Made by a program: the position numbers and the translations under genes. Below are positions 15-19,142 of a DNA stretch of 49,382 bases, piece by piece. The stretch lies in the NCBI GenBank assembly GCA_016209895.1, contig JACQVH010000225.1, positions 1 to 49,382 on the forward strand, given 5' to 3'. Position 1 is the stretch's first letter, and each line of letters opens with the position of its first letter. This stretch comes from Candidatus Hydrogenedentota bacterium. Lineage in GTDB: Bacteria > Hydrogenedentota > Hydrogenedentia > Hydrogenedentales > SLHB01. The notes under the pieces are model-generated. The model did no database searches. It had not been told where the DNA came from and was given only the letters and a program-made list of their open reading frames with translations.

Positions 15-986
15 ATGGTCGTCGCGGTATCGCCGGCGGGCAAGTCGCTGCGGATCGCGGGAACCACCGGATTAGTGCTCGGCGGCAGTATTGACGCCGT
101 GGTTAACGACAAGTATCGGAAGGCCATCCGGGAAGCACTGCAAGGCTACGACACCGGCAAAGTATTCGAAGAACGCATCGAGGCTCGCCTCAATCAGGCA
201 CTTTCCGGAGGAATCAAGCGCGTTGCGCCTATGGGCTCGACCGCCGGGTTCAACAGCGATCGCGAGGCAGAGCAGATGCGGTACCAGAAATTGGGCGCGG
301 ACGGCGTGGACCTGCTGTTGGACCTGACCATGACCTACGGCGTCTACGGCTACGAGGGCACGATGGTGGCCAAACTGGAAGGAAAGCTGCGCAGCATCCC
401 CAAAGGAAGCCGCCAATGGGACGAGACGGTGGTGGCATCGCCCGGACCCATCCTCGCCAGCGCACGGCTCGGTGACCCCACCAACCGGCTGAGTCCCGCG
501 ATGTCGGGAGCCAGACTGTCCGTGGAAGATGAGGCAGTGGGGCGGTGGACGTCGGATGGCGGCGCTCTTCTGCGTCAGGACTTCGAAGCGGCCGTAGACG
601 GAGCCATCTCGGCGTTGCTCTGCGACCTCGGACTAGCTGAGGAGGCCTTGGGTGAGTATAACCTCGGCAAACGCGAGTTGAATGCCAAGCACTTCGCGGA
701 AGCCGCGAGCCATTTCCGTAAGGCCATCGCACTTGACAACGCTCTCGCGCACGCGCACAACGGCTTGGCGGTGACCCTGGCCCACGCGGACAAGCTAGAC
801 GAAGCGATCGCCATGACCATAGCTCTCACCGAACGGTCACCCGATTACGCCCCCGCCTGGTACAACCTGGCTTGGTGGCATGCCACCGAAAAGAAAGACC
901 CAAACGCAGCCAAGCCTTACTATGAGCGTGCCCGTGCCTTAGGAATGGCACAAGACGAAAAGATCGAGAAAGCATTGAAGAAATGA
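15..986 (+). CDS. TPR-repeat protein, N-terminus probably truncated by window edge
   Basis: Frame stays open to the left edge. C-terminal TPR-like helices (FAEAASHFRKAIALDNALAHAHNGLAVTLAHADKLDEAIAM). Confidence 0.7.
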   Translation: MVVAVSPAGKSLRIAGTTGLVLGGSIDAVVNDKYRKAIREALQGYDTGKVFEERIEARLNQALSGGIKRVAPMGSTAGFNSDREAEQMRYQKLGADGVDLLLDLTMTYGVYGYEGTMVAKLEGKLRSIPKGSRQWDETVVASPGPILASARLGDPTNRLSPAMSGARLSVEDEAVGRWTSDGGALLRQDFEAAVDGAISALLCDLGLAEEALGEYNLGKRELNAKHFAEAASHFRKAIALDNALAHAHNGLAVTLAHADKLDEAIAMTIALTERSPDYAPAWYNLAWWHATEKKDPNAAKPYYERARALGMAQDEKIEKALKK

Positions 987-15242: not shown

Positions 15243-15411
15243 GAATTACCTGACGCTCCATCTTTTGACGAATGCGGGCTGTATTATGCGTTTCAACTCG
15301 CGGGAATTCCACCCTACCGGGGAGTTAACGCTCGGAATTGCTGGAAACAGAACACGAAGATTTCAAGATTGACGGCTGCCGATCTCTACGTCGGTGTCTA
15401 GGCGTGTCCGG

Positions 15412-15723
15412 AAAGGAACGGACATAGCAAAAATCGCAACCGTGCGGGCACCCACGCGAAACTACCATCGAGTTCGGCACCAGGTAATTCCGCCGTTTGA
15501 TCAAGTCTCGGCGAATCGGCGGGAGGTCCGTTAGATCGCGGGTCAGCGAGCGGTAAAGTCGCATCGGTCGTCCCGCGCGGAAATCGGCCAGAAATCGCGG
15601 CCAGGCTTCCTCCGCCGGACCAGCCACGACGGTACCCGCGTGTTGGAGCCCTTCCTCGGGCAACGAAGTCACGTGTAATCCGCCCAAGACTACAAAGGCT
15701 CCTCGCCTTCGATATTCACATGA
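15412..15723 (-). pseudogene. Internal fragment of a B12-binding/radical SAM protein
   Basis: RRRGAFVVLGGLHVTSLPEEGLQHAGTVVAGPAEEAWPRFL...RRDLIKRRNYLVPNSMVVSRGCPHGCDFCYVRSF contains the CxxxCxxC motif. N-terminal B12 region and the rest of the TIM barrel are missing. Confidence 0.75.
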
Positions 15724-15742
15724 CGTCACCCGGACGCGGTGG

Positions 15743-16483
15743 TCAGTGGCTTGCTGCCACTTGCAGGTCCGGGATTCGTCCGTAGCGGCGGTCGCGGCGG
15801 TGGTACTCCTGGACGGCCTCGGCCAAGTCATCGGGACTGAAATCGGGCCACATGGTTGGGGTGAAGTACAGTTCGGCGTAAGCGCATTCCCAGAGCATGA
15901 AATCGCTGAGCCGCAGCTCTCCGCCGGTTCGAATCAGCAGATCGACGTCACGGTAGTCGGAGGCGGCGCACCCGTCTCCGCCCAAACGACGCGCGAATTG
16001 TTCCGGCGTGGTCCTTCGCGGCCGGGCAAGGTGAACCGCCGCTTGCAGGATCGCGTCGCGCGACGAGTAGTCCAATGCGATCTGCAGGACCAATGTCGTG
16101 CCGTTCGAGGTGGCAGATTCGGCAACCTCGATTGCGCACCGCAAGGGCCCGCTCAAGCGCGTGCGCGAGCCCAGGACCCGCAGGCGTACCCCTTTTTCGA
16201 CGCAGGTCGAGACCTGGGTGCGAAGATATTCTTCCAACAACTGCATCAGATTGGCGACTTCCTCGGACGGCCGACGCCAGTTGTCCGAGGAAAAGGCGTA
16301 CAGGGTGAGCGCCTCGATACCGAGGTCGGGCGTGGACTCGACCACGCGCCGTACGGCGTCCACGCCGGCGCGATGTCCGGCGGAGCGGGGCAGCCCGCGT
16401 CGCTGGGCCCAACGACCGCTTCCGTCCATGATGATGGCCACGTGGATACCGTTATGGTTGTCGTTTCCCGGAAAGTTTCCCAT
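15743..16483 (-). CDS. uppS: Isoprenyl transferase / undecaprenyl diphosphate synthase
   Basis: HVAIIMDGSGRWAQRRGLPRSAGHRAG, ALTLYAFSSDNWRRPSEEV, DLLIRTGGELRLSDFMLWECAYAELYFTPTMWPDF. ATG at 16483 preceded by AAGGAGA. Confidence 0.93.
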   Translation of the reverse strand: MGNFPGNDNHNGIHVAIIMDGSGRWAQRRGLPRSAGHRAGVDAVRRVVESTPDLGIEALTLYAFSSDNWRRPSEEVANLMQLLEEYLRTQVSTCVEKGVRLRVLGSRTRLSGPLRCAIEVAESATSNGTTLVLQIALDYSSRDAILQAAVHLARPRRTTPEQFARRLGGDGCAASDYRDVDLLIRTGGELRLSDFMLWECAYAELYFTPTMWPDFSPDDLAEAVQEYHRRDRRYGRIPDLQVAASH

Positions 16484-16515
16484 CGGAAGTCTCCTTCTCA
16501 TAACACGTGTGAAGT

Positions 16516-16532
16516 ACTTTGTATTATAAAGT
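16516..16532. promoter_or_regulatory. Candidate operator palindrome ACTTT-N7-AAAGT upstream of uppS
   Basis: ACTTTGTATTATAAAGT in an AT-rich patch between the wHTH stop and the uppS start. Same half-sites and spacing as 17570..17586. Confidence 0.5.
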
Positions 16533-16553
16533 ATATATCCAAAAAAATATCCG

Positions 16554-16928
16554 TCAGCCTTCGCGCACGCGGCGGATGAGTGCTTCCATGTGGTCCAGAT
16601 ACCGTTCCAGGGCCTTGCGACCCTTGTCCGTCAACCGAAATTCAGTCTTGGGCACGCGGCCTTCGAAGTGTTTCCGGCACGCGATATATCCGGCTTCCTC
16701 GAGTTTCCGGGTATGCACACTCAGGTTTCCGTCCGTGGTCTTGAGAATACGCTTGAGTTCGTTGAAGCTGAGCGACCCATTGACCGCGAGCGCGCTTACG
16801 ATAGCCAGCCGCAACCGCTCGTAGATGATGCGGTCGAGTGGAGGGACTTCGACACGACCGGCCGGAGCCGCGTCGGCACGCGGGCTCAGATGCGGCGCTT
16901 GTCTGGCGGTGTTAGTCTTAGCCACCAT
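16554..16928 (-). CDS. Winged-helix (MarR/ArsR-like) transcriptional regulator
   Basis: LRLAIVSALAVNGSLSFNELKRILKTTDGNLSVHTRKLEEAGYIACRKHFEGRVPKTEFRLTDKGRKAL. Confidence 0.88.
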   Translation of the reverse strand: MVAKTNTARQAPHLSPRADAAPAGRVEVPPLDRIIYERLRLAIVSALAVNGSLSFNELKRILKTTDGNLSVHTRKLEEAGYIACRKHFEGRVPKTEFRLTDKGRKALERYLDHMEALIRRVREG

Positions 16929-17532
16929 GTTTCCTCGCAATGATGCATCCGAATACGATATTCAACAGCCCGAAGCCGAGGGCCATCCACGCGTCGCCAC
17001 GGCCCCACGGCACGAGGAACGCGACCACGCTGAGGGCCATGAAAGACGATCCCATTACCGGCACGACCTTCACCGAGAACGCGCCGCCGGTGACCACCGC
17101 CGTCCCGTAAAGCAGCAGCCAGGTGGCGGGCATCAGGGCGTGCAGATTCAACCGATGGAAGACGGCGGTCAACAGCAGACCGGCGACGAGCGGTGGAAAT
17201 AACCCGAGCGCGAAACGTCGTCCGGAACCGTGCAACACTGACTCGTTGACGCGCCGGGCCTTCACCAGCATCGCGGCAACGCCCAGGACCGAAGCTAACA
17301 CGGCCGTCGCCAGCCACGCGGTCAACCAGGCCGCGGGCGCCACCATACGATGCGCCATGACCGCCCCGCCTACAGCGAGCACACCCATGCCGACCGTGCC
17401 CCAGCCCGGGACCGCCGTAAACGAGGTTGACCGTTCCATGGTCTGCCGGATGAAACGCAGATTGTCCATGGCGTGCCGATGTAAAGGGGTCGGCTCTTCC
17501 GCGTCCGGAATCGGCTTGGGACTTAGGTTCAT
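16918..17532 (-). CDS. Multi-pass membrane protein paired with the wHTH regulator
   Basis: 204 aa with several hydrophobic segments. Overlaps the regulator start. Confidence 0.75.
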   Translation of the reverse strand: MNLSPKPIPDAEEPTPLHRHAMDNLRFIRQTMERSTSFTAVPGWGTVGMGVLAVGGAVMAHRMVAPAAWLTAWLATAVLASVLGVAAMLVKARRVNESVLHGSGRRFALGLFPPLVAGLLLTAVFHRLNLHALMPATWLLLYGTAVVTGGAFSVKVVPVMGSSFMALSVVAFLVPWGRGDAWMALGFGLLNIVFGCIIARKHGG

Positions 17533-17569
17533 GGTCGTATCGTACCCGAAGTTCTACATTATGTCAAGT

Positions 17570-17586
17570 ACTTTATATAACAAAGT
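17570..17586. promoter_or_regulatory. Candidate operator palindrome ACTTT-N7-AAAGT upstream of the membrane protein/wHTH operon
   Basis: ACTTTATATAACAAAGT, 38 bp upstream of the operon start. Matches the site upstream of uppS. Confidence 0.5.
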
Positions 17587-17798: not shown

Positions 17799-19142
17799 AT
17801 GGAACCATTTATCCTACCACTCATTTTCTTTTTGTGGTTGCTCACGGCCGCGATATCAGTGCCCTTCTACCCGCGCACGGTTCGGAAGGCGCGAGCACGA
17901 GCGGAACAACCGGGCGCCAAGCCCGAAGACACTGCGAAGATGTTAAGGCAACTTCGGAGGCGGCTCTTGGTAACTCTGGTTCTCGGTGTCGTGGGAGCAA
18001 TCGGACTGACGCAAATGGGAATCGAATTGGGCTGGGCTAGCGGCGCGAGCGCAAAATCTCAGGGGTGGAGCGACGGTTCTTCTGCGGCGCTTCACGCCAT
18101 TGCTTCACAGTATGTGGGACCGCTGGTCCGGTCCGACAGCGTTGGCGCTACCGTGGTGATAATCGCAGGTGATCAGCGGGGAGTTTCCGGCTTTGACCGG
18201 ATACGGCTTAGTCAGAGCCAGTTGCCAGACGGTAATACGATATTTGAGATCGGTTCCATCACGAAAGCGTTTACGGGTATTCTTCTCGCGGAAGCGATAG
18301 AGCGCGGGGAGTTGGAGATCGATCGTCCGGTCGCGGGGTTAGTCTCGGAGGCGTCCGCCATACCGGCGATTCAGCAAGGACAATCCATTACGCTGAAACA
18401 CCTCACAACACACACGTCCGGTCTTCCGCGTTTGCCGCCGGGATTCTTCAGCGTGGGCCGACTTTGGCGTCCGCTCTTCGGACGCGACCCCTATCGAAAT
18501 TACTCGATGGATGATTGGGCCAAAGCCCTTCGCACCGTCGAATTGGAAGCAGCGCCCGGGACTCAACATAGCTACTCGAATTTCGGGGCCGGTCTTCTCG
18601 GTGAGGCATTGTCGCGGCGTGCAAATACCGATTACGCCGACTTGGTACACACCCGGATTTGTGAACCATTGGACATGGGAGACACGGTCGTCACATTGAA
18701 CCAGGACCAGTCCGCCCGACTTGCGACCGGCTACCGCGCACGCCTCAGCCTATGGCCACTGCTGCTTGGCCTGCGGGCCGAAAACTGGGAGGCGCCCCGG
18801 GCTTTCGCCGGGGCCGGCGCACTGCGCTCGTCGGCGAAGGACATGCAGAAATTTCTGGCGGCGAACATGGGCCTTCGTACTAGCGAATTGGCGCCCGCGT
18901 TGAAACTTGCGCAGCAGGAGCAGTTTCGCGTCAATGATCAGCACGCTGCCGGCATGGGTTGGCAACGAACGTGGCGCGACGACGTTGGCCAGGTCGTTAT
19001 TTGGCACAACGGCGGCACCGGCGGCTATCATAGCTTTCTCGGATTTACGGAAGACCGACGCGTTGGCGTGGTCATTCTAACCAATTCCTCAACGAACTGT
19101 GACCCGGCCGGATTCGAGGTCCTCGCGGCGCTGACCAAATAG
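17799..19142 (+). CDS. Beta-lactamase-family serine hydrolase with N-terminal membrane segments
   Basis: EIGSITKAFTGILLAEAI (SxxK), HSYSNFGAGLLGEAL (YxN), IWHNGGTGGYHSFLGF (HxG-like). Confidence 0.9.
   Translation: MEPFILPLIFFLWLLTAAISVPFYPRTVRKARARAEQPGAKPEDTAKMLRQLRRRLLVTLVLGVVGAIGLTQMGIELGWASGASAKSQGWSDGSSAALHAIASQYVGPLVRSDSVGATVVIIAGDQRGVSGFDRIRLSQSQLPDGNTIFEIGSITKAFTGILLAEAIERGELEIDRPVAGLVSEASAIPAIQQGQSITLKHLTTHTSGLPRLPPGFFSVGRLWRPLFGRDPYRNYSMDDWAKALRTVELEAAPGTQHSYSNFGAGLLGEALSRRANTDYADLVHTRICEPLDMGDTVVTLNQDQSARLATGYRARLSLWPLLLGLRAENWEAPRAFAGAGALRSSAKDMQKFLAANMGLRTSELAPALKLAQQEQFRVNDQHAAGMGWQRTWRDDVGQVVIWHNGGTGGYHSFLGFTEDRRVGVVILTNSSTNCDPAGFEVLAALTK

Follow-up and report, generated by a model that had tools for sequence, protein, structure and literature searches.

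The locus examined here raises the question of why two copies of the same short palindrome should stand on either side of a small regulatory operon and ahead of a gene for lipid-carrier synthesis, in a bacterium of the phylum Hydrogenedentota. Within the window, i.e. the whole stretch of 49,382 nt that was analysed, the earlier note had described matching ACTTT-N7-AAAGT palindromes at 16516..16532 and 17570..17586, and the letters agree exactly at both (ACTTTGTATTATAAAGT at 16516-16532 and ACTTTATATAACAAAGT at 17570-17586). The genes concerned all lie on the minus strand, in the order membrane protein (17532-16918), winged helix–turn–helix (wHTH) regulator (16928-16554) and uppS (to 15743), with one site 5' of the membrane gene and the other past the wHTH stop codon, ahead of uppS. 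The features of the locus, some of them predicted, are:

15325..15831, minus strand: truncated remnant of a B12-binding radical SAM gene, 3' of uppS2 (Pfam matches weak, below cut-off)
15743..16501, minus strand: uppS2, second cis-prenyltransferase gene (PF01255; NF011412; own clade)
16512..16532, minus strand: putative downstream operator (DN), ACTTTATAATACAAAGT-ACTT, in the interval that separates the wHTH stop codon from uppS, exact
16541..16548, minus strand: A/T tract with its end 8 bp ahead of the DN operator (ATTTTTTT as read on this strand)
16554..16928, minus strand: wHTH regulator, HTH_34 (PF13601), proposed binder of both operators (Pfam, fold)
16918..17532, minus strand: membrane protein of 204 aa with six membrane helices (alignment, structure model)
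17539..17567, minus strand: promoter predicted for the membrane protein/wHTH operon, -35 TTGACA at 17567-17562, -10 TACGAT at 17544-17539
17566..17586, minus strand: putative upstream operator (UP), ACTTTGTTATATAAAGT-ACTT, three half-sites, exact
17799..19142, plus strand: serine hydrolase of the Pfam Beta-lactamase family (PF00144), divergent from the operon

Pattern searches of the 5.34-Mb genome (G000) returned exactly two copies of ACTTTN7AAAGT, 1054 bp apart and both at these positions of the window, while the reversed control motif occurred once; the motif is not frequent at random positions. On the minus (coding) strand both palindromes extend as CTTT-N7-AAAGTACTT, and this extended motif, CTTTN7AAAGTACTT, is found at these two sites only in the whole genome, with no occurrence of its control. 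The leading AAGT that had been noticed in both copies is correct for the plus strand; on the strand of the genes it reads as a trailing third half-site, ACTT, and what is conserved is an element of three half-sites rather than the simple palindrome first proposed. When up to two mismatches are allowed the window contains 13 matches against 11 expected, therefore exact matches alone are meaningful, and a wider regulon in G000, sought with two to three mismatches, was rejected at or below background. Of the regulon suggested by the earlier note, both sites at the locus stand, and in G000 it is confined to them. An Rfam search matched no element.

Two short palindromes in a single window are weak evidence by themselves, and one to two exact matches per genome is near expectation for some base compositions (the control gave one in G000), so that a chance or AT-rich coincidence had to be weighed against the situation in other genomes. 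There, the same motif stands at the same positions beside orthologues of the HTH_34 regulator in approximately 95 genomes; the orthologues occur in ten of the 25 genomes searched from the family of G000, in other families, and in Acidobacteriota, Gemmatimonadota, Eisenbacteria and others. In the relatives' set, 17 of 18 close-orthologue loci, a count which includes this window, carry the site with at most one mismatch, in agreement with the conservation that had been anticipated. An exact site lies near the regulator in 39 of 80 named loci, and these 80 loci together hold 50 exact sites in 585 kb, at orthologous positions, compared to 0 for the reversed motif. With a promoter geometry that is also fixed across loci, chance retains a negligible probability and, on these sequence comparisons, is already refuted.

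Conservation differs between the two sites. Among the 92 loci having the membrane gene, and at a threshold of one mismatch, the UP site precedes that gene in 77 (15 are without it) and the DN site is present in 48, 42 of them with uppS next (44 are without it), the distance between the two being mostly 1018-1157 bp. The third half-site ACTT shows a per-base conservation of 85-97% at UP sites and 64-91% at DN sites. A search of 30 genomes for the extended motif gave 43 rows, of which about 33 belong to the locus, against a single hit for the control. In 68 genomes of the family and order, and in a form whose third half-site may also carry T, the extended motif is present in 15/17 genomes with an orthologue and in 11/51 without (Fisher p=1.5e-6). 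The palindromes are thus real, conserved and probably functional, and almost certainly serve as operators of a self-controlled cell-envelope switch. Binding by some different protein, such as a global regulator or a nucleoid protein whose sites merely coincide with the locus, appears highly improbable: wHTH binding is a prediction, and a few extra sites exist elsewhere in related genomes, but genome-wide the motif is nearly confined to the locus and tracks the presence of the regulator, and where the HTH_34 protein is a more distant paralogue, as in ten loci (L052-L059, L061, L062), the exact site is absent.

The proposed binder belongs to HTH_34, which it matches at 97.3 bits against a gathering cut-off of 27 over profile positions 1-80 of 80. 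It falls below the Pfam cut-offs for the MarR family (MarR and MarR_2, 21.5 vs 24.6 and 23.4 vs 27 bits) and for PadR (20.1 vs 27 bits), as well as below that of the NCBIfam ArsR/SmtB model HTH_metalloreg (29.8 vs 55 bits), with the generic HTH_5 domain alone above its cut-off (30.6 vs 22 bits). The AlphaFold model has pLDDT above 90 over the domain and a disordered stretch of 28 residues at the start, and its closest fold is that of PH1061 (PDB 1UB9; TM-score 0.83 normalised to 1UB9), which is a sequence match too. PH1061 and other PF13601 proteins have the same DNA-binding domain, and no operator, partner or regulon is described for them in the literature searched, whereas for the present protein we propose an operator, a membrane partner and targets.

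The MarR, PadR, HxlR and ArsR one-component autorepressors are small dimeric wHTH proteins that bind AT-rich palindromic operators. The present system resembles them in having a small wHTH protein, an autoregulated operon (as predicted) and a palindromic operator over the promoter, and differs in its scores, which fall below the MarR and PadR cut-offs, in its three half-sites, in the near-constant six-helix membrane neighbour and in having a second operator where uppS2 begins. MarR operators are described in PMC13277315.

How the UP site would act is suggested by its position. Across loci its consensus is RCTTT-N7-AAAGTACTTGACA, and it abuts the -35 box in such a way that the third half-site contributes its TTG to the beginning of the -35 hexamer. 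In the window the promoter reads TTGACA-N17-TACGAT-ACGACC-ATG, with the start codon 6 bp past the -10. At the same offset, 58/77 UP sites have TTGACA with at least five of six matches, compared to 0.4% when other offsets are taken. The -10 position carries TAnnnT in 57/77, and in 63/77 an in-frame start codon lies at operator +50..60, mostly +54/55; a leaderless transcript is therefore predicted. The operator overlaps its own operon's promoter, sharing TTG with the -35, as is looked for in an autorepressed operon, and the autoregulation of the wHTH operon that the earlier note predicted is borne out to this extent, across several phyla.

A near-consensus promoter with an operator over the -35 box is a layout that we take to indicate repression, since a promoter whose -35 box is this close to consensus, at a spacing of 17 bp, needs no activator. 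An activator that recruits RNA polymerase from just upstream of the -35 (dyad centre about -46) is unlikely; the main dyad does lie upstream of the -35, a position which activators use too, but the promoter, with TTGACA and a 17-bp spacer, is already near consensus, its -35 box is overlapped by the third half-site, and the second site is inside the operon, with no promoter there to activate.

The DN site has a companion which the UP site largely does without, namely an A_nT_m tract, 6 bp or longer and with its end 7-10 bp ahead of the operator, found at 43/48 DN vs 3/77 UP sites. The tract is usually 6-11 bp long, ends exactly 8 bp before the DN operator in 34/48 loci and is placed independently of the start codon position. 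The uppS start codon lies before the DN operator in eight loci, inside it in 24 and after it in ten. Thus 32/42 uppS-linked DN operators overlap uppS codons, in one fixed frame, and only 10/42 are free of coding constraint, which counts against the main reading; in L074, L076 and L079 the gene behind tract and operator is one for DUF4153 in place of uppS. That the DN site is kept for any position of the start codon, and also before DUF4153, argues for selection on the DNA site and not on the protein sequence. In L063-L064, L069-L070, L074, L076, L079 and 18 further loci, uppS2 is either followed or replaced by a gene for a DUF4153 membrane protein; as a target in G000 it was rejected, the gene not being found in this genome.

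One possibility is that uppS2 has an independent promoter whose operator is the DN palindrome. A TATAAT inside the window's DN copy and the ten loci with a start codon after the site are in its favour, yet the mean best promoter score near DN sites is 6.9, vs 6.8 in the coding control and 9.0 at UP sites, and with the uppS start codon in or before the operator in 32/42 loci, a promoter within the operator cannot yield a full uppS mRNA; we regard this as improbable. An intrinsic terminator at the A/T tract was also considered and rejected (hairpins of -5.7 vs -5.2 kcal/mol in the control, p=0.51), and no conserved terminator hairpin was found before DN sites. No helical phasing of the UP–DN distance was detected (R about 0.14-0.18, n=44), a result that counts against tight looping and favours a roadblock over it. 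Because it is without a promoter of its own, the DN site is probably an auxiliary intra-operon operator rather than the operator of a separate uppS promoter, and the control over uppS that had been attributed to it is to be read in this sense.

The gene behind the DN site is not the housekeeping synthase. The uppS2 product passes TIGR00055 (237 vs 109.55 bits) and NF011412 (338.8 vs 334), the cis-prenyltransferase motifs are present in its alignment, and it can be assigned to the polyprenyl diphosphate synthases; its likelier start is the ATG at 16483, which has a good Shine-Dalgarno sequence, with 16501 as the alternative. A uppS gene lies downstream of the regulator in about 70/97 loci. Two uppS genes occur in exactly seven of the 25 family genomes, G000 and six relatives, and these are the genomes with the membrane protein–wHTH–uppS locus; the other copy in G000 lies in an rpsB-pyrH-frr-uppS-cdsA cluster. 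At least two uppS matches were found in 19/20 genomes of Acidobacteriota, Gemmatimonadota and others, a few of the matches being fragments of one gene. The housekeeping copies belong to the same enzyme family and share the motifs DGxGRW and RTxGExRxS, whereas uppS2 has a RTGGE-RLSDFLLWE signature and a dedicated regulator, and in the tree the locus copies form one clade and the housekeeping copies the other (support 100/100). The locus uppS is a second paralogue, separate from the housekeeping gene; the lipid-carrier gene that was thought to be controlled does have a conserved second operator copy before it, and it is this paralogue.

The membrane protein is paired with the wHTH regulator in 91/97 loci, and this near-constant pairing suggests that it may be a sensor or antagonist partner of the regulator. 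In an alignment of 35 sequences an N-terminal stretch rich in invariant residues (IR..., FTAVPGWG), with the motif DNLRFIRxTMERSxSFTAVPGWG, precedes the six helices. The protein has no Pfam or NCBIfam match, and its model (pLDDT 90.6) has no convincing solved structural relative.

Taken as a whole, the explanation we favour, with a probability of roughly 0.72, is that the wHTH protein represses its own operon at UP and restrains uppS2 at DN, and that a membrane sensor relieves this; the binding, the sign of the regulation, the action at DN and the sensor role are all inferred. A wHTH dimer, or two overlapping dimers on the three half-sites, would bind CTTT-N7-AAAGTACTT. At UP the bound protein would cover the -35 box and so repress the membrane protein/wHTH/uppS2 operon, while at DN it would act inside the transcribed operon on the start region of uppS2, most likely by standing as a roadblock in the path of RNA polymerase or jointly with the UP site, and would hold the second undecaprenyl-diphosphate synthase at a low level. 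The membrane protein would sense a disturbance of the envelope or of the lipid-carrier pool and relieve repression. A more specific version can be offered only tentatively, in which one switch spanning phyla blocks initiation of a leaderless operon at UP and elongation into uppS2 at DN, where the operator lies over the uppS2 start region and has the A/T tract at its fixed distance of 8 bp, and in which carrier-lipid synthesis rises only upon release of the regulator by the membrane sensor.

The surroundings of the operators, here and in relatives, include several recurrent genes. The radical SAM remnant shares 40% identity with a portion of an enzyme of 529 aa adjoining an operator in an Acidobacteriota genome, and intact B12-binding radical SAM relatives adjoin operators, with the site ahead of the gene, in L175 and L286. 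A beta-lactamase-family serine hydrolase is seen near radical SAM genes at operators, as in the window, and a relative of the window's serine hydrolase gene flanks an operator in L286; this gene is possibly co-regulated with the operon. In five Hydrogenedentota loci (L071, L072, L075, L077, L078) the intergenic region 5' of the membrane gene is common to a divergent, unassigned membrane-anchored protein of about 500 aa, and several of these loci have two tandem operators in it. Elsewhere, an operator-like site lies about 80 bp upstream of creD (L167 1501-1517, relative G021), and the extended motif is found in two Acidobacteriota genomes (L235 1506, L242 1501) immediately 5' of one shared, unassigned and Pfam-less protein family, which by eye looks ferritin-like and measures about 250 aa, and of PAF-acetylhydrolase-like genes in two genomes (L239 1501, L264 1506). 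These extra sites in relatives point to candidate envelope or lipid functions.

The nearest described case of a wHTH regulator tied to uppS, in the parts of PMC13277315 that bear on it, is RmaH, a MarR-family protein of Lactococcus lactis that is linked to cell-wall genes including uppS and whose overexpression raises uppS transcription. It differs in its broad effect on many genes and in its Firmicute host, and those parts of PMC13277315 describe neither a membrane partner nor a second uppS. In the open-licence literature searched, neither the motif, nor operators for HTH_34 proteins, nor a second uppS under regulation is described.

Undecaprenyl phosphate limits the synthesis of peptidoglycan and surface glycans, and why a bacterium should keep a second, separately regulated synthase is not obvious. 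The proposed circuit recurs in Acidobacteriota, Gemmatimonadota, Hydrogenedentota and others, and in some genomes is linked to CreD and DUF4153 membrane proteins. With it, the uncharacterised HTH_34 regulator family gains a candidate operator and candidate targets, and the regulation of lipid-carrier supply becomes testable in abundant, little-studied soil phyla.
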